Assembly (NCBI RefSeq): GCF_014524565.1 | Contig: NZ_CP060139.1 | Coordinates: forward strand, 3,851,501 to 3,915,500 | Direction of reading: 5' to 3' | Source of the DNA: Croceimicrobium hydrocarbonivorans | GTDB lineage: Bacteria > Bacteroidota > Bacteroidia > Flavobacteriales > Schleiferiaceae | DNA length: 64,000 nt | Part shown: positions 48,781 through 58,150 of the stretch, one piece after another | Numbering within the stretch: the first letter of the stretch is position 1 | How the letters are laid out: every line of letters begins with the position of its first letter | Translations under genes and position numbers: made by a program | The notes under the pieces: model-generated | What the model was told of the DNA's origin: nothing | Seen by the model: only the letters and a program-made list of their open reading frames with translations | Database searches by the model: none

Positions 48781-49899
48781 ATGAAGAAAATTGCACTTTT
48801 AGGCTTGAGCCTCCTGCTGATAGGCGCCTGTAAAAAGGATTCAGACACTGATGGTACTGATGGCGGTAATGGAGGAGGTAGCTCTTCTGGAATGCAAGCC
48901 TATATTGGGATTGAAGGAACTTCTCCCAATGGAATCAGTAGTTTGGCGATGTACAATGTGACCAATCAAACGATTGAGAACAATGTATTCCGCAAGGCCA
49001 ATATCAATCCTATGGGATCACAATTAAGTGATATGATGTTGGATAAGTCTCGTAATCAATTGGTTTTAATCGTACCGGGCTCCAATAAAATCGTATTTGT
49101 GGATGCCAAGACTTTGAAGATTAAATTCCAAACTCGAGATCTACTGCAAATCCGGAAAGTAGCTAAGGTTTCTGACAATCTCTATTATGTTACCTGTCCC
49201 GAATTACCTGGTTATTATGTGATTAACGCTAATAATGGTAATGTAGTGGATGAAATTACCTTCGATGTAGGGGTTAATCAAACTGAAATTGCGGTTTGGG
49301 AAGACTTAGCCTTCATTTGCAATAATGGGAGCCCGATGTCAAAAGACAGTACCGTGAGTATTGTGCGTACAACCGAAGATACTTTGGTAACTAATTTAAT
49401 CGTGGGCCATTCACCCAACAGTTTTGTAATCGATGCGTCTAATCATTTGTGGATTCTTTGCAGTGGTGATTTAAATGTTGCCGATCCTACCCAAAGTGGT
49501 ACCGGTTCTTTGTGGAAGTACAATTTGGATACTATGTACCGTGACATTGATTCCGGTTGGGCGATTACAGCCGATACAGTGATGTACTTTGTTGACAATC
49601 AATTACGTCCGCATTACCTTACCCATGATGAGGCAGGGGGTAATTTGTACTATATCACCAATTTACCGACCGGAGATATTGCGGTTACTAATACCAGTAT
49701 TAAAGCTTTGAATGAGAACCCAATAGTAGAGGATAACTTCTATGCGCTGGCTTTCGATCCCATTAATTTGGAATTATACGGAATGCGCACCCCTGATGAT
49801 ATTGAGAAGAACGGGGCCCTACAGATCTTTGATCCGGTAGGTAACAAGAAGACCAGCATTACCATTGGGGTAAAACCCAACAATGTCGTCTTTAAATAA
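48781..49899 (+). CDS. Beta-propeller lipoprotein, YncE/DUF5074-like (possible BtuG-type)
   Basis: 372 residues. Lipobox Cys17 (LIGAC) is followed by an acidic linker of Asp/Gly/Ser. The mature protein is made of repeats of about 40 residues (QLVLIVPGSNKIVFVDAKTLKIKF, LYYVTCPELPGYYVINANNGNVVDEI, NSFVIDASNHLWILCSGDL) as in YncE-type seven-bladed propellers. In Bacteroides, BtuG is such a lipoprotein and binds vitamin B12 on the cell surface. The next gene, overlapping by 17 bases, encodes a CobT-like protein, so a B12 link is plausible but not shown. No B12 riboswitch fits in the 55-base gap upstream. Confidence 0.7.
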   Translation: MKKIALLGLSLLLIGACKKDSDTDGTDGGNGGGSSSGMQAYIGIEGTSPNGISSLAMYNVTNQTIENNVFRKANINPMGSQLSDMMLDKSRNQLVLIVPGSNKIVFVDAKTLKIKFQTRDLLQIRKVAKVSDNLYYVTCPELPGYYVINANNGNVVDEITFDVGVNQTEIAVWEDLAFICNNGSPMSKDSTVSIVRTTEDTLVTNLIVGHSPNSFVIDASNHLWILCSGDLNVADPTQSGTGSLWKYNLDTMYRDIDSGWAITADTVMYFVDNQLRPHYLTHDEAGGNLYYITNLPTGDIAVTNTSIKALNENPIVEDNFYALAFDPINLELYGMRTPDDIEKNGALQIFDPVGNKKTSITIGVKPNNVVFK

Positions 49900-50896
49900 T
49901 CTCAGTTTTGATTTAAAACCTTTAAAACCGCTTAAGGCGGAGCTAAAGGAAAAGATACAAGCAGAAAAGTCCGGGCAGAAATTAAACTTTCAGCCCAGGG
50001 CTTTTTTTCAGTTTTTCACTTGGCTAAATCGAGTTCAGGGGAAAAAGCAGGCTCAATTGCTGAATATTGATATTCTCAGCTTTGCCGGTGATCATGGTAT
50101 AAATGCTGAATTCTCAACACCTCGTTTTCGCAGTGGTGAATTTTTAATGGATGCCATGCGGCAAGAAACCATGCCCGAATTATGGAAGGGGAATTTGAGC
50201 CTTCAACATTTTTGGGTAGATCTGGGAGTTGATTATGCCTTTGAGTCGAATATCAGCTATTGGCTAAATCACAATAACAAATTAATTAATAGTAAGATAA
50301 AAGCTAGAACCGAAAGTTTTAGTTCATATCCTGCAATGACCGATGATGAGCTCGCCGAAGCCTTTTACAGCGGTCGGAAATTAGTGGATAGAGCCCATTA
50401 TCAAGAAAAGGATCTGCTGGTTTTACACAGTTTAGGGGAAGGGCAAATCTTTAGTGTTTATGCTTTGGCCTGGGCTTTAAGTATTAGTGATGCCAAAGCC
50501 TGGACTAAGTATTTACCAGCTTGGTTAGGTCAGGAGGTAGAACAGGAAATTCAGCGTCTGGCCAAAAAACATCCTATTAGTCATAATCCCTTTACCAATC
50601 TCTGCTTTTACGGAGGATTTGAAACCGTGGCCCTTTGTGGGGCGATTATCCGAGCGGCAGAAAAAGGTATTCCCTTTCTGCTAGCGGATCCTATGGCGAT
50701 TATTGCCTGGCAGTATGCGGCTAAGATTGTTCCTGGAGTAGAGCAATATGGCTATGCTGTGGGAAACTTCGCAGAGCATTTAAGCAAAGACTACGGTTCC
50801 TTTAAGGAAAACATGAGCTATACCGCTAGTGGGAGGGAATGGTATCCCTTTATTTGGAAGATGCAGCAGGAATTGCGCCAGTTTAATGCTCAATAA
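49883..50896 (+). CDS. CobT-like phosphoribosyltransferase, divergent
   Basis: 337 residues. Matches to nicotinate-nucleotide-dimethylbenzimidazole phosphoribosyltransferase are SFAGDHGINAEFSTPR (GDH at 69-71), a LGEG segment at about 183-186, and NPFTNLCFYGGFETVALCGAIIRAAEKGIPFLLADPMAI. The usual GEMGIGNTT motif reads LGEGQIFSVYALA, and the C-terminal GEGTGA with the catalytic glutamate is not recognisable. It may be a degenerate CobT or a related binding protein. True CobT makes alpha-ribazole phosphate for the lower ligand of cobamides. The overlap with the propeller gene and the convergent DUF6580 gene suggest cobalamin salvage. Confidence 0.65.
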   Translation: MSSLNNLSFDLKPLKPLKAELKEKIQAEKSGQKLNFQPRAFFQFFTWLNRVQGKKQAQLLNIDILSFAGDHGINAEFSTPRFRSGEFLMDAMRQETMPELWKGNLSLQHFWVDLGVDYAFESNISYWLNHNNKLINSKIKARTESFSSYPAMTDDELAEAFYSGRKLVDRAHYQEKDLLVLHSLGEGQIFSVYALAWALSISDAKAWTKYLPAWLGQEVEQEIQRLAKKHPISHNPFTNLCFYGGFETVALCGAIIRAAEKGIPFLLADPMAIIAWQYAAKIVPGVEQYGYAVGNFAEHLSKDYGSFKENMSYTASGREWYPFIWKMQQELRQFNAQ

Positions 50897-50921
50897 AAAA
50901 AGCACCCCTAAGAGGTGCTTT
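50893..50921 (-). terminator. Terminator between the CobT-like and DUF6580 genes
   Basis: 8-bp stem AAAGCACC/GGTGCTTT with a 7-base loop; a run of T follows on the minus strand. The + strand T run is weak, but the stem may serve both genes. Confidence 0.7.
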
Positions 50922-50950
50922 CAATATTCTTTATCGATATAATCTGGATA

Positions 50951-51496
50951 CTAAGCTCTAATGCGCTCCAGGATAGGCTTGCCTTCGGTTAAACGATAGG
51001 CTGCTACGATTACTATTCCGTAAAATACGGTTCCCATTACTTGATTGAATAAGAAAGGTAAACCTGCAACATAAGAGCCTATTAGGCCATTAACATTTTG
51101 TGGGTAAGCAGGGTTTCCTAACCATACACCGAAATTGGTAAGCAAGAAGAATAATAAAGTTCCGCTAATACCACCTACAATTACGTGAGCCCATTTAGAG
51201 CTACCAAAATTTAATACGCCTAAGAGGGCGATTAATAAGTAAGAGCTGTATAACCATCCAGCGCCCTGGGTGATTAAAGTGAAGCCCATATAAGAATAGA
51301 GGGTATTGTTAATGATAAAGTCGCTTACAAATAAGATAAGCATAGGGAAGAGGAGGGCCTGGTAGCGTTTACCAAAGAGCATTCCACCGGTAAAAACAAC
51401 CGCAGTCATAGCGGTGAAATTAGGCCAGGGAGCAATCAAACGGCTGCCAATGGCAAGGACAAATAGGATCGCTAGGTAGATCAGTTGTTTCTTCAT
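50951..51496 (-). CDS. DUF6580 family putative transport protein
   Basis: 181 residues, almost entirely hydrophobic, with five or six membrane segments (LIYLAILFVLAIGSRL, FTAMTAVVFTGGMLFG, ALLFPMLILFVSDFI). The F-T-A-M-T-A-V motif and the size recall S-components of ECF vitamin transporters. In Bacteroidota the family is often near cobalamin genes; here it faces the CobT-like gene. The substrate is inferred, not proven. Confidence 0.65.
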   Translation of the reverse strand: MKKQLIYLAILFVLAIGSRLIAPWPNFTAMTAVVFTGGMLFGKRYQALLFPMLILFVSDFIINNTLYSYMGFTLITQGAGWLYSSYLLIALLGVLNFGSSKWAHVIVGGISGTLLFFLLTNFGVWLGNPAYPQNVNGLIGSYVAGLPFLFNQVMGTVFYGIVIVAAYRLTEGKPILERIRA

Positions 51497-51539
51497 GTTT
51501 TATACTTGAGAGCACAAAGTTAAGAAGCCTAAAGCAAAA

Positions 51540-52130
51540 TCAAGCTTCCGGACGGTATTCTCTAAAGCTTCGATCGCGATAAAAGATGATTATGCGGTCA
51601 ATTTCCTTTTCTGGCACTGGATTAACATTTGTATATACATTTGTTAATTCGGAATCACGCTTTTCTTTTGGGTACTCAGGCTCTTGTTTATCAGTAGGTT
51701 CAGTCTTAGGATTATCAATAGTGTCTTTTACAGCATAAGGAATGGGAGCTCCACTGGGTTCTGATACATAGCGAGCACCAGGAGGTAGGCCAAAAGAGGA
51801 ATAGGCGGCTTCATCCTCACTACTTACTTGCTTAGCTTTATCTACTTCTTTAGGTTCCTTAGGATCTATAGGCACTTTAGGTTCATTGGCTTTATAGTCC
51901 TTTAATTGTTGATCTTCATACATAGAGCCCTTACCATTTAATAAATAATCGAGATTTACATTTGTATATACATTTGTAATCTGTTGAATAAGGTGTAAAG
52001 AAGGGTTATTTCTACCGCTCAATACGTGACTAATGATAGCAGGGGCAACGTCTATGCTTTGAGCGAAGTCCTTATTACTTAAACCCTGATCAGCAATTAA
52101 CTCCTTTATCCTAGCGGCAATTTCTTCCAT
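51540..52130 (-). CDS. XRE family transcriptional regulator
   Basis: 196 residues. The N-terminal helix-turn-helix is clear (LSNKDFAQSIDVAPAIISHV, then LSGRNNPSLHLIQQI) with the Bacteroidota ending LDYLLNGKGSMY. After residue 75 the protein is low-complexity and acidic (PKVPIDPKEPKEVDKAKQ, PKTEPTDKQEPEYPKEK). An eight-residue word, TNVYTNVN, occurs in the helix-turn-helix end and again near the C-terminus, encoded by nearly identical DNA. The ATG at 52130 directly follows a terminator-like hairpin. It may control its own expression; targets are unknown. Confidence 0.75.
   Translation of the reverse strand: MEEIAARIKELIADQGLSNKDFAQSIDVAPAIISHVLSGRNNPSLHLIQQITNVYTNVNLDYLLNGKGSMYEDQQLKDYKANEPKVPIDPKEPKEVDKAKQVSSEDEAAYSSFGLPPGARYVSEPSGAPIPYAVKDTIDNPKTEPTDKQEPEYPKEKRDSELTNVYTNVNPVPEKEIDRIIIFYRDRSFREYRPEA
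51624..51645 (-). repeat. Tandem TACAnnTGTA-like boxes, copy A
   Basis: On the + strand: AACATTTGTA (51624-51633), TA, TACATTTGTT (51636-51645). Two imperfect palindromic boxes 2 bases apart, inside the XRE gene near its 3' end. The same arrangement occurs at 51957-51978. Confidence 0.5.
51957..51978 (-). repeat. Tandem TACAnnTGTA boxes, copy B
   Basis: On the + strand: TACATTTGTA (51957-51966), TA, TACATTTGTA (51969-51978). Each box is a TACA/TGTA inverted repeat with a 2-base spacer. Identical to copy A over 20 bases apart from the outermost base at each end. It encodes the first TNVYTNVN word. Confidence 0.5.
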
Positions 52131-52167
52131 AAAAAAAAGACTTTACTACAAATGTAATAAAGTCTTT
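52131..52167 (-). terminator. Terminator-like hairpin abutting the XRE start codon, with a TACAnnTGTA box in the loop
   Basis: Perfect 10-bp arms AAAGACTTTA (52136-52145) and TAAAGTCTTT (52158-52167); the 12-base loop contains TACAAATGTA (52147-52156). On the minus strand eight T follow and run straight into the ATG of the XRE gene. It can terminate the upstream phoD-like transcript and/or attenuate the XRE gene. Confidence 0.65.
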
Positions 52168-52285
52168 CGAAATGTTAATGTTAAGCTTTTTCGGAAGCTT
52201 AAACTAAGCTTTAATAGATTGGCTTAAAGTTACTGAAAATCAATGCTTAAAAATATGAATTAACAAATGAGAATACTTATGTATA

Positions 52286-53593
52286 TCACTCACTTAGGGA
52301 CCAGGAGTAGATTTGTTCGCCTTCGCTATTGTAATAGATCAGTACCAGCTTACGAGCTTTGCGCTTTCCGCTGATGTTCATTACCGCGAAATTGCGTTCC
52401 TGAATTAAGGAACCTTCCACGCGGTAGTCATTTTCCTCAGTCACCTGATGTGCTGCCCCGCTGGTTAAAGGCGAAACCGTGAACTCATACACCCAATTGC
52501 CATTAGGTAACTGTAATTTATCTACTTCGCTATGGTGACGGTCGCCACTGATGAAGATCACATTCTTAATATCCTCATCATTTAGGCGCTTGAGGATATA
52601 ATCACGCTCTTCTTCGTAATTGCTATGGTTTTCGAATACTTGGGCGGTGTTTAAGAATTGCCCACCGGTTAAAACGAATTTAAAGGGCGCATGACTTTGT
52701 TTTAGGAGGTCAATCATACGATCAATCTGCTGGGTTCCAAAAATCTGCTCAGGATGCTCCTCGCTTGGCTCGGTGCGGTAAAAGCGGTTGTCCATCATTA
52801 CAAAATCACAGTCTCGGTAATTAAAGGCACTAAAGGTGCAAGGCATATCACGGTATCCAAAACTGGGATTGGGCCAAAAGAGCTTAAACATCTCCAGGGC
52901 CAAATCGCGATGGATCCAGGAGCCATTGGCGTCATTTGGGCCGAAATCATGGTCATCCCAAATCGCATAATTATTACAAGAGGCCATTAGCGCCTGCATT
53001 TCCTCAATAGAACGGGTATGGGTGTAGCGGTGGATGTATCCAGAGCGCGTCCACCAATCAGCATCACGTAAATAGATATTATCGCCCAACCAAAGCATGG
53101 CATCCGGCTTTTGCGATTCTATACTCTTGAATATCTGATAATCGCCACCATACGGAGTGCCTGGCCGATCGTAGGCTTCTTCATTAATATAGGTACAGCT
53201 TCCCATGGCAATAGAGAAGGCAGGAGGATCAGTGCGATAATCCCATAAGGGTTCGGTATCGAACTCCAGGGGGAATTTAAATTTTTGGTTTTCATCGTCG
53301 ACCATCACTTCGTATTCGTAAATGGTGCCGGGCTCCAAATTGCGGAGGTAGAGTTTGGCGGTATTCCCGGTATTTGCAGAGGTGCTCACCAAGTCGGTTT
53401 CTTGCTTTTGTTCGGGACTGTTTTGGGGCCAGTAATTGAGTTTAACTGAGCCTTTATCGCGGAGCTGTACCCAAATTAGGGCTTCTTTCATTTCCGCATA
53501 ACCTAATAGTGGTCCGCTTAAAACCTTATTAGATTGAGCCACAATAGTTAAGGATAGTATACTTAAAGCTATACTAAATGCTAATCGTTTCAT
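52286..53593 (-). CDS. PhoD-like alkaline phosphatase
   Basis: 435 residues with a signal peptide (MKRLAFSIALSILSLTIVAQ). An N-terminal fibronectin-like domain precedes the PhoD phosphatase core: GSCTYINE, WLGDNIYLRD, YAIWDDHDFGPNDAN and SGDRHHSEVDKL hold the metal site. Family members cleave phosphomonoesters or diesters outside the cytoplasm. On the minus strand, TATTTTCG at 53614-53621 is a possible -7 box. A terminator hairpin lies at 52136-52167. Confidence 0.85.
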   Translation of the reverse strand: MKRLAFSIALSILSLTIVAQSNKVLSGPLLGYAEMKEALIWVQLRDKGSVKLNYWPQNSPEQKQETDLVSTSANTGNTAKLYLRNLEPGTIYEYEVMVDDENQKFKFPLEFDTEPLWDYRTDPPAFSIAMGSCTYINEEAYDRPGTPYGGDYQIFKSIESQKPDAMLWLGDNIYLRDADWWTRSGYIHRYTHTRSIEEMQALMASCNNYAIWDDHDFGPNDANGSWIHRDLALEMFKLFWPNPSFGYRDMPCTFSAFNYRDCDFVMMDNRFYRTEPSEEHPEQIFGTQQIDRMIDLLKQSHAPFKFVLTGGQFLNTAQVFENHSNYEEERDYILKRLNDEDIKNVIFISGDRHHSEVDKLQLPNGNWVYEFTVSPLTSGAAHQVTEENDYRVEGSLIQERNFAVMNISGKRKARKLVLIYYNSEGEQIYSWSLSE

Positions 53594-53716
53594 TTTATAA
53601 CGGTTTAAGTGACCGAAAATAAGCGTAAAAAGCGGATTGGCTTAAGCTTTAACTTAATCTTAATCCCGTTATTTGTAAGAGTGCGAGTTTACAGCCCTTT
53701 TTGATAGATTTCTACT

Positions 53717-54874
53717 ATGCAATTCTCTACTCAAAACTCTAATAATACTAGCCTAAAATCTTTGGTTCCGGAGCGACGATGGTTGCGCCTGGAGCACCTG
53801 AATGACTTATGGGCTTTTGTGGGAAATCACGAAGATTTTCAAATTGAATCTATTGGCCACAGTGAAGAAGGTCGGGACTTGAAGGTGATTCTCTGGGGGA
53901 AAGGCCCGAAACGAATATTTGCTTGGACCCAAATGCATGGCAATGAGCCTACCGCGACCTTGGCTTGTGCCGATTTGCTACAGGATTTAGTTTCAGATCC
54001 TGAATTAATGGCACTGGAATCCAAAATCGAAGTGGCCTTAGTTTTAATGTTAAATCCGGATGGAGCCGAGCGCTTTCAAAGGCGCAATGCCCTGGGGATT
54101 GATTTAAACCGAGATGCTGTAGCCCGCTGCAGTGCTGAGATTAAGGCCTATTTCAATTTCCTGGAAGCCTTTAAACCTCAGTGGGCTTTTAATCTGCATG
54201 ATCAGCGAAATATTTTTAGTGCCGGAGCCAGTGAGCATTGCGCTACCCTAAGTTTCTTGGCACCTTCAGCGGATGAAGAGCGCAGTATCCGTTTGGAGCG
54301 CAAGGTGAGTATGCAAATGATTGCCGCTATACATCAAAAGCTGGAAGACAGTCTTAGTGGACATTTCGGGCGATATAGCGATGAATTTTATCCTCGTGCT
54401 TTAGGGGATAACCTCATGAAATTGGGTATTCCTAATGTTTTATTTGAAGCCGGTCATTTTCCTGGAGATCGCTTCCGCCGAAAGGCTCGAGAGCTCAATT
54501 ACCGTGGTTTAAAAGAAGCCTTGCATTTGGTTGCCACTGATGCCTGGGAATTGGTAGATCCCGCCTTATATCATCTAATTCCTGAAAACAAAAGCCATTT
54601 GCGCGACCTTATATTTAGAGATCTGCAATTTGGTAATTGCCGTTTAGACCTGGCTCTGATGGAGCAAGAGGTGCCGAATAAAGAAAGTGGGGAACTGGAG
54701 ATTAAATTTCGCATTGATGATATTGGCGATCTCAGTCATCTCCATGGTATTCAAGAATATAAAGGCGGAATATTGGCATTTGAAGGGGATTTCAATCAGG
54801 ATGCCTTAGCCAATGGTCGGATCCAAAGTGAACGTGAATTTGTATTTAAACATGGCTATTTACAAGAGCATTAA
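53717..54874 (+). CDS. M14-type zinc carboxypeptidase-like protein
   Basis: 385 residues, no signal peptide. Zinc ligands are His74 and Glu77 in MHGNEPT and His161 in FNLHDQRN. The substrate arginine region is IDLNRDA, and the catalytic Glu244 is in LFEAGHFPGD. This is the pattern of M14 peptidases in the succinylglutamate desuccinylase/amidase branch. Its last about 90 residues are unlike carboxypeptidase A. It overlaps the aldehyde dehydrogenase gene by 23 bases. Substrate unknown. Confidence 0.8.
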   Translation: MQFSTQNSNNTSLKSLVPERRWLRLEHLNDLWAFVGNHEDFQIESIGHSEEGRDLKVILWGKGPKRIFAWTQMHGNEPTATLACADLLQDLVSDPELMALESKIEVALVLMLNPDGAERFQRRNALGIDLNRDAVARCSAEIKAYFNFLEAFKPQWAFNLHDQRNIFSAGASEHCATLSFLAPSADEERSIRLERKVSMQMIAAIHQKLEDSLSGHFGRYSDEFYPRALGDNLMKLGIPNVLFEAGHFPGDRFRRKARELNYRGLKEALHLVATDAWELVDPALYHLIPENKSHLRDLIFRDLQFGNCRLDLALMEQEVPNKESGELEIKFRIDDIGDLSHLHGIQEYKGGILAFEGDFNQDALANGRIQSEREFVFKHGYLQEH

Positions 54875-56428: not shown

Positions 56429-56818
56429 ATGAAAAAGCAAATTTCCGCCGTTGAAGCCTTCCACAATGCTTTTCGCATTGAAAACCGTTATGCACCCACT
56501 GCTGATATTGATGAAAAAACGCAGCTCTTGCGCTATAAATTAATGCGGGAAGAAAATGAAGAATACCTGGAAGCCGCTCAGAATGGGGATTTGGTGGAAA
56601 TTGCCGATGCCCTGGGGGATATGCTCTATATCCTTTGTGGCACCATTTTAAGTCATGGTATGCAGGATAAAATTGAAGAGGTATTCGACGAAATTCAGCG
56701 TAGCAATATGTCGAAATTGGATGCCAATGGCGAACCTATTTACCGGGAAGACGGCAAGGTGCTGAAAAGTGATCAATACTTTAAGCCCAATATTAAGGCT
56801 ATTCTCGATCGGGATTAG
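56429..56818 (+). CDS. MazG-like nucleoside triphosphate pyrophosphohydrolase family protein
   Basis: 129 residues, all helical. Metal-binding motif EENEEYLEA (EExxE) and EIADALGDMLYILCG (ExxD) match the all-alpha NTP-pyrophosphatase superfamily (MazG/phosphoribosyl-ATP pyrophosphohydrolase). It hydrolyses a nucleoside triphosphate to a monophosphate; the substrate is not readable. Typical of house-cleaning enzymes. Confidence 0.8.
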   Translation: MKKQISAVEAFHNAFRIENRYAPTADIDEKTQLLRYKLMREENEEYLEAAQNGDLVEIADALGDMLYILCGTILSHGMQDKIEEVFDEIQRSNMSKLDANGEPIYREDGKVLKSDQYFKPNIKAILDRD

Positions 56819-57837
56819 AGTTTTTGTACTGCATCTACCAGGCGCTGCGCAATAGCGGCTTTGCTGTAGGATGCTTCCATCTTTTGGCGGGCTTTGTGGC
56901 CTAAGGCGCTTAATTCATCGCGATGATCGCGTAGGTATAGAATTTTATCGGCTATGGCTTGCGGATTAGCTTCGGCGGTGAGTACATCTGTACCCGGCTC
57001 AAAAACCTCCCGTAAACCCGGACTGTCTTTAGTGAGGATGGCTTTTCCGGAGGCCGCATAGTGATAGAGTTTATTGGGTACTACCAAATCAGCTTTGAGT
57101 GATTCACCAAAAACGCCGAGGGCCAGATCGAATTTGGCAATTTGCGCAGCTAATTCATCGTAGGGAATCCAGCCTTTGAAAATATCCAGAGATAAACCGC
57201 GATCAGCAGCTAATTGCCGCGCTTCCTCATATTGATGACCGGTTCCTAATAAGGTGAAATTAAGGTCTTTCTCCTCCTTGAGTAGGGCTATGGCCTCTAT
57301 GATGCTTAAAACTCCTTGTAAGGGCACGAAAGTGCCGTAAAATCCCACTTCGAGCGTATCATCCTTTTTGGGGTAATGGGCTGGGAATTCCTCCAAATGC
57401 ACACCCACGGGTACCACGGCCTTAGGCAAGGAGGAGGGGAGTCTCAAGGTTTTCTCGAAATACTGCAGATGGGCAGCGGTATCGGCTAGGAGGAGATCAC
57501 AATTTCTAAAATCCCGAAAATCGATCCACCATTTTTGGGGAGCTTTCCAATAATGGCCATAGTCGACCACCTTGGTAAGGTAGCGGGAAATTAGGGGATC
57601 AAAAACCACTGGGGCCTGGGCATAGCGACGTACAAAGCTCAGGTCGCGATGACGAAAGGGTGGCACCAGAACCACATCAGCCTTTAAACTAAGATCCCGA
57701 AGCACCTGGCCGTATTTCGGCTGGCGTTCGGGAATCTTATAATACTGTACATCATGCCCCAATTCCTTTAAACCTTCGGCCAAAATATAGGTGCGGTTGT
57801 AAGTAAAACCATCCTTGGCGGCGAAGAGGAACTGCAT
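56815..57837 (-). CDS. Glycosyltransferase, GT4 family
   Basis: 340 residues of the GT-B fold. The donor-binding C-terminal half shows VGFYGTFVPLQGVLSIIEA, LLGTGHQYEEA, and the LVVPNKLYHYAASGKAIL motif with the sugar-nucleotide-binding region. It joins a sugar to an unknown acceptor, probably in surface polysaccharide synthesis. It stands alone between the MazG-like and hibernation-factor genes. Confidence 0.85.
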   Translation of the reverse strand: MQFLFAAKDGFTYNRTYILAEGLKELGHDVQYYKIPERQPKYGQVLRDLSLKADVVLVPPFRHRDLSFVRRYAQAPVVFDPLISRYLTKVVDYGHYWKAPQKWWIDFRDFRNCDLLLADTAAHLQYFEKTLRLPSSLPKAVVPVGVHLEEFPAHYPKKDDTLEVGFYGTFVPLQGVLSIIEAIALLKEEKDLNFTLLGTGHQYEEARQLAADRGLSLDIFKGWIPYDELAAQIAKFDLALGVFGESLKADLVVPNKLYHYAASGKAILTKDSPGLREVFEPGTDVLTAEANPQAIADKILYLRDHRDELSALGHKARQKMEASYSKAAIAQRLVDAVQKL

Positions 57838-57850
57838 GAAAGGAGAGAGG

Positions 57851-58150
57851 TTAGTGCTTTTGCATTTTGGTTTTAAGCTTGCGGATTTGTCCTTTAAGCT
57901 TGTCTACTGCATCATGCACGGCTTTTTCGAAAGAAGCATCGTGACTTTCGGCGAAGAGATCATTGCCGGGAATATTCAGCTTGATTTCTGCTTTTTTGTT
58001 TTGATTCGCTTCGTCCTGAATCAGTTTCAGGTAAACTTCCGCACCTACGATTTGATCGTAGTACTTGTGCAATCCACTTACTTTTTCTTCAGTAAAGGAG
58101 AGCAACTCTTCTGTAGCTTTAAAGTCTACAGTTTGGATATCCCATTTCAT
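57851..58150 (-). CDS. hpf: Ribosome hibernation promoting factor (HPF/RaiA family)
   Basis: 99 residues of the short HPF type. Family pattern: a small alpha-beta fold with the VDFKATEELLSFTEEKVSGLHKYYD first helix and the AEIKLNIPGNDLFAESHDASFEKAVHDAVDKLKGQIRKLK end. It binds the 30S decoding centre and inactivates ribosomes in slow growth. Confidence 0.9.
   Translation of the reverse strand: MKWDIQTVDFKATEELLSFTEEKVSGLHKYYDQIVGAEVYLKLIQDEANQNKKAEIKLNIPGNDLFAESHDASFEKAVHDAVDKLKGQIRKLKTKMQKH

Follow-up and report, generated by a model that had tools for sequence, protein, structure and literature searches.

The purR gene of Escherichia coli carries an intragenic autoregulatory operator, and the repressors of the CopR-CopY, BlaI and MecI group are winged-helix proteins, of another fold than the regulator described here. 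Within the LacI family, operators inside coding regions are described in the available part of PMC4052901 for LacI in lacZ and for PurR in purB, such coding sites making up less than 1% of the family's sites. The regulator RcoLS20 of plasmid pLS20, in the available part of PMC4207663, governs its own expression as well as that of a divergent promoter, using two operators joined by a DNA loop. Operators in coding DNA, which are rare, and autoregulation by a looping helix-turn-helix regulator are already known; in searches of open PMC text, no title or abstract opening pointed to an intragenic self-operator of the kind proposed below. Two aspects seem to be new: the presence of this regulator's operator in many Bacteroidia families, and the fact that operators have repeatedly been placed in the regulator's own frame. 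The proposal agrees with the LacI family in that a repressor would have its operator in coding DNA, and differs from the cases named in that excerpt in that those sites are in target genes, whereas here they are in the regulator's own gene and in several copies. With RcoLS20 it shares a helix-turn-helix autoregulator, looping being only proposed here; as far as the cited part goes, the two RcoLS20 operators are 75 bp apart, one of them overlapping the divergent promoters, in another host, and RcoLS20 activates as well as represses its own promoter, unlike the regulator proposed here.

The window that we analysed is a stretch of 64,000 nucleotides from Croceimicrobium hydrocarbonivorans (NZ_CP060139.1, positions 3,851,501 to 3,915,500), in which an open reading frame on the minus strand (51540..52130) encodes an XRE regulator of 196 amino acids. 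Its protein scored 32.8 bits against the Pfam HTH_3 cut-off of 23, which identifies an XRE/HTH_3 domain; no specific NCBIfam family was found above the curated cut-offs (8 weak matches, all below). The first-pass annotation had reported five palindromic boxes, as two tandem pairs inside this gene and one single box before it, and all five are present. As it had also stated, a 22-bp arrangement occurs twice in the coding sequence, 333 bases apart, and encodes TNVYTNVN both times: word 1 (51957..51978, minus strand, sense TACAAATGTATATACAAATGTA, residues 52-59) and word 2 (51624..51645, minus strand, sense AACAAATGTATATACAAATGTT, residues 163-170, in the linker), each a putative tandem operator pair. 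The single box is promoter-proximal (52147..52156, minus strand, sense TACATTTGTA, which contains TACATTTG). Exact TACANNTGTA is found in 3 of the 5 boxes, and both boxes of word 2 have one mismatch each, at the outer base; the two words differ from each other in their two outer letters only, where the change is symmetric and the ends retain dyad symmetry. We identified 4 exact boxes in the window, compared to a mean of 0.55 in shuffled sequences, and none of the 100 shuffles reached 4. One-mismatch boxes were unremarkable (23 vs. 15.9 in shuffles, with 6 of 100 shuffles reaching 23). The boxes are genuine and go well beyond chance expectation. Three of the 4 exact boxes are at the XRE gene, and the fourth, an isolated exact TACATCTGTA (56983-56992), is located elsewhere, within a long minus-strand open frame (56818-57903).

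The AlphaFold2 model of the protein (mean pLDDT 74.9, pTM 0.41) has a confident helix-turn-helix domain at residues 1-70 and a beta hairpin at the C-terminus, connected by a linker about 100 residues long with block pLDDT of 51-73; that this modelled hairpin might serve in oligomerisation for looping can only be guessed. The solved XRE relatives DdrO and SinR have the helix-turn-helix domain in common with it, the similarity spanning roughly the first 65-83 profile positions only. Foldseek returned no match at E up to 0.001, and in a phage collection a single weak match was obtained, with 35% identity across 35% of the query.

The gene was found in all 7 genus genomes searched. In the window's family (f1), 63 of the 88 genomes searched had a match, and 30 loci were read (25 of the 30 proteins form set A1, with L027-L029, L035 and L037 left out; the start assigned to L035 is probably too late). 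Of 60 Flavobacteriaceae (f3) genomes, 55 gave a match at E up to 1e-8, with two matches in one genome; from 30 fetched loci, 28 were parsed (L071 and L073 left out; the start of L085 is not ATG). Across the class, 71 of 247 genomes matched at E up to 1e-10, and 40 loci were fetched, of which one, from Flavobacteriaceae, was left out; among the 39 loci from other families, one (f6) is of the same order as the window. A palindrome scan of 256 half-sites with 9 gaps each (0-8), ranked by loci, placed TACA-N2-TGTA first in the window's family (60 sites in 25 of 30 loci; 2.55 per kb vs. 0.04 in flanks). When the genus was left out, it was tied for first with the overlapping TTAC-N4-GTAA (18 of 23 loci each), and in Flavobacteriaceae, with 64 sites in 26 of 28 loci (3.17 vs. 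0.07 per kb in flanks), it ranked just below that palindrome, the margin being a single locus and a single site. Among the remaining families of the class it again ranked first, with 71 sites in 32 of 39 loci and 7 in flanks. Exact boxes were absent from the scanned regions in 5 of 30 loci of the window's family, 2 of 28 Flavobacteriaceae loci and 7 of 39 loci from other families.

The placement of the boxes varies between families. Among the 28 Flavobacteriaceae loci, they are upstream with one exception, typically near -275, -251, -217 and -39. Exact in-gene sites number 11 in 7 of 7 loci in the genus and 16 in 11 of 23 other loci of the window's family, compared to 1 in 1 of 28 Flavobacteriaceae loci and 4 in 3 of 39 loci from other families. 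Judging from these sequences, putative coding operators are mainly a habit of the window's family, upstream ones being the more general state, and we infer that upstream placement is ancestral.

The sigma-70 promoter type does not fit this phylum. The flavobacterial sigma-A -7 consensus is given as TAnnTTTG in the available part of PMC9723704, and start-proximal boxes often contain TACATTTG, which fits it. Exact TACATTTGTA is located at most 60 bp from the start in 5 of 7 genus loci, 4 of 23 other loci of the window's family, 17 of 28 Flavobacteriaceae loci and 17 of 39 other loci. A conserved palindrome thus overlies the regulator's own predicted promoter, as is typical of an autoregulatory operator. 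The conservation of the boxes as DNA, their position over the -7-like element and their recurrence in the non-coding DNA of relatives are all apparent in the sequences; we infer that it is the XRE protein which binds them, that its binding represses transcription and that the sites in coding DNA influence the promoter. Operation as self-operators, with the coding sites auxiliary, is in our judgement the probable explanation. The protein, probably as dimers, would recognise TACANNTGTA (extended, TTTACAWWTGTAAA), and on the site over the -7 element it would occlude RNA polymerase and block its own transcription. The coding tandem pairs may, with less assurance, be auxiliary operators that raise local repressor occupancy through looping to the promoter site, as a roadblock or by titration. 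The earlier proposal of autoregulatory operators is thereby favoured, given that the boxes are kept as DNA and that the same box is found in non-coding DNA at this gene in relatives.

It is unlikely that another regulator, a repressor of the CopY/BlaI type (PF03965) or the MarR type, binds the boxes and controls the XRE gene. According to the available part of PMC7253601, the same 10-base palindrome, TACANNTGTA, is the classical CopR-CopY operator, and BlaI and MecI use TACA/TGTA. PF03965 proteins were found in 7 of 7 genus genomes, and in each of the 7 Flavobacteriaceae loci read, a similar word adjoins a gene that by eye is MarR-like. However, of 50 genomes that were chosen for the XRE gene, not for exact boxes, 16 gave no PF03965 match (14 among the 46 of good quality); these include G438 (L078; 4 boxes, one with a mismatch) and G445 (L082; 5 exact boxes), where many boxes are present and no PF03965 repressor was found. 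The refined CopY 16-mer (RNYKACANNTGTMRNY) is mostly unmatched here, 41 of 237 upstream sites and 6 of 56 in-gene sites fitting it in either orientation, and the boxes stay with the XRE gene in many families.

Quite unlikely is the possibility that the words are promoters or RNA elements, acting either as -7 boxes for antisense transcripts or through RNA structure. On their antisense strand, the boxes in the gene do read TACATTTG or AACATTTG, and directly before the ATG there is a strong terminator-like hairpin with a T tract (52135..52168, minus strand; 15-bp stem, 4-base loop, -16.5 kcal/mol, z -7.9), with the T tract running into the ATG. The single box had been placed in the loop of this hairpin; it is indeed at the apex, but its outer letters pair at the top of the stem, so it is not wholly in the loop. 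The hairpin is kept in 6 of 7 congeners (MFE -13.2 to -17.0 and z -5.0 to -6.9 for 48-nt leaders), with two-sided changes in 2 of the 15 predicted pairs and a slightly unfavourable covariation term (+0.72), so that covariation speaks only weakly for it. It is missing in the seventh congener, G005, yet the coding words persist there. In addition, the Flavobacteriaceae sites upstream of the promoter would be outside the mRNA if transcription starts near the -7-like box, and no Rfam match was obtained at the gathering threshold in 50800-53800. 

Under the self-operator explanation, the hairpin would stop read-through from the PhoD-like phosphatase gene upstream (52286..53593, minus strand), in which case transcription of the XRE gene would depend on the operator-held promoter. 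In G005, a separate terminator-like hairpin was seen further upstream (by eye); promoter box and intrinsic-terminator-like hairpin thus occupy the same bases in 6 of 7 congeners and are apparently separate in the seventh.

That the TNVYTNVN peptide was selected for protein function, with the DNA match following from codon choice, appears very unlikely. Word 1 does fall in the confident domain of the model, at the end of helix 5 and in the loop before the next helix, and 31 of the 32 exact in-gene sites share one common frame, T-x-V. For this frame bias the genetic code offers a simpler cause: with a following A, one of the other frames reads a stop and the third inserts Cys. Word 1 is present in 7 of 7 genus genomes and varies there only in its final letter, which is A or T, so that its sole variable codon is the last Val (GTA or GTT). 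In a comparison of 8 orthologues, the eighth being from a neighbouring genus (G008), 7 of the 8 codons of word 1 were invariant, compared to 4 of the 41 other amino-acid-invariant columns (p = 2.8e-5, Fisher; p = 5.5e-5, Mann-Whitney), and of those 4 columns two (I51 and T167) are beside or in a word. Synonymous positions are thus nearly fixed within the word and free outside it. The first-pass annotation had held that synonymous changes through the boxes, with the peptide kept, would count against operators; in the orthologue alignment, no such synonymous drift was found. Word 2 is in the low-confidence linker, and nothing in the structure there appears to require this same peptide. It is complete in 5 of 7 genus genomes (with one changed letter in G003) and reduced to a partial or single box in G004 and G006, both of which have a full non-coding pair just past the stop codon of the upstream PhoD-like gene. 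At the corresponding place in the window, a degenerate stretch noticed by eye (52260..52289, minus strand) is possibly a decayed copy of the operator pair.

Further in the window's family, nt 164 is a recurrent place for boxes, with FTNVN there in place of the common FPxVN, and boxes are also found in the linker at nt 221, 230, 344 and 362-416, reading T-x-V, some with one outer mismatch; a one-mismatch site at nt 37 of L030 does not read T-x-V. All 44 of the 44 TNV triplets in the 30 orthologues, which are not independent of one another, are ACAAATGT followed by A or T (ACAAATGTA in 33 and ACAAATGTT in 11), compared to about 12% expected from codon use in the other long open frames of the loci (ACA 0.257, AAT 0.683, GTA+GTT 0.68). 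The direct control is small, with 8 TNV in other open frames, of which 2 are ACAAATGTA. The same DNA is also found in non-coding sequence, and because the box recurs outside coding sequence at this gene, neither peptide selection nor duplication explains it.

Internal duplication, which the first-pass annotation had offered as its alternative, or a mobile short repeat, is extremely unlikely: the eight-residue words are identical, but their flanks are unrelated (by eye), the boxes of relatives are at other places, including non-coding DNA of related genomes and of other families, and a search of the 4.04 Mb genome for the 22-bp pair, allowing up to 3 mismatches, gave just three places, two of them words 1 and 2 and the third, with 2 mismatches, elsewhere.

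Self-operators of the XRE protein account for these observations better than internal duplication, peptide selection or a CopY/BlaI repressor. Counting against them are the loci without exact boxes, the low share of loci (4 of 23) in the window's family outside the genus that have the exact -7-type box close to the start, and the identity of the 10-base palindrome with the CopY/BlaI operator. As read from the alignments, the putative sites are flexible in position: the linker places differ, G004 and G006 have non-coding pairs, and in G020 a full pair is within the coding sequence of an M14-like gene (L055 1500-1521), about 1.9 kb from the XRE gene, with no box found at that genome's own XRE gene. 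A fuller account, which we put forward tentatively and at somewhat less than even confidence, is that of a conserved Bacteroidia XRE switch whose nearly private operator migrates between intergenic and coding DNA and in one family lies inside the regulator's own frame, the protein accepting the change from FPxVN to FTNVN and the TNV words in its linker, so that its own feedback circuit would loop or block across the gene body. An uncharacterised regulator of many Bacteroidia families thereby gains a predicted operator and predicted neighbour targets, and the locus would be a clear example from nature in which a protein seems to have been altered by regulatory DNA, residues of the DNA-binding domain and the linker appearing to follow the binding site and not the reverse.

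With regard to neighbour targets, an M14-like gene (by eye) is directly divergent in 8 of 9 annotated Flavobacteriaceae loci (the exception being L100), with start positions between -260 and -309 for 7 of these genes and at -458 for the eighth, and it is likely a second target in that family. In the window, the Peptidase_M14 gene (53717..54874, plus strand) is separated from the XRE gene by the PhoD-like gene; the latter intervenes in all 7 genus loci, and in these the stretch from the PhoD-like gene to the M14 gene yielded neither an exact box nor one with a single outer mismatch.

Exact single boxes TACANNTGTA are not enriched genome-wide (25, of which 3 are at the XRE gene, vs. 38 for the reversed control). 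In seven relatives, TACAWWTGTA occurs 5-15 times per genome, with 1-5 of these sites at the XRE gene. That so few sites lie elsewhere favours self-operators. We considered a wider regulon and rejected it: the seven other TACAWWTGTA sites of the own genome and one TACATCTGTA site (L070) are in contexts without a shared theme, 4 of the 8 being within an open reading frame (L063, L066, L068 and L070) and 4 between or before open reading frames. One of the latter, with the sequence TACATTTGTACCTTTG, immediately precedes a gene that by eye is miaB-like, and this site may simply be a promoter. The word beside the MarR-like genes of Flavobacteriaceae was judged a different site, centred on TTGTATATACAA (by eye): ACAATTGTATATACAAATGT adjoins the MarR-like gene in 7 of 7 loci (L040-L046, by eye) and is probably a separate operator, and the other flank has a thioredoxin-like gene in 5 of these loci and a rhodanese-like gene in L046 (by eye). 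Two other out-of-family word matches (L038 and L039) were set aside, being from genomes of about 0.6 Mb with unrelated neighbours.

Helical phasing between sites was likewise considered and is not claimed. With uncollapsed spacings, none of 500 random sets reached the observed value; when related spacings were collapsed, 56 and 16 of 2000 random sets did so at a preset period of 10.5 bp, and 170 and 330 of 1000 when the period was left free, so that the signal is not robust. A distance of about 178 bp from the promoter box to an auxiliary box recurs, downstream in the genus and upstream in several Flavobacteriaceae loci, and is given no weight.

Downstream of the XRE gene, a DUF6580 gene (50951..51496, minus strand) is possibly co-transcribed with it, and a DUF6580-like neighbour was seen by eye in several other loci of the window's family. 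The DUF6580 gene, a CobT-like phosphoribosyltransferase gene (PF02277) and a gene without Pfam matches (beta-propeller-like by eye) adjoin one another in 48781-51496. A cobalamin link for DUF6580 is possible, and genes like the CobT-like and propeller-like neighbours are found near DUF6580 in some relatives.
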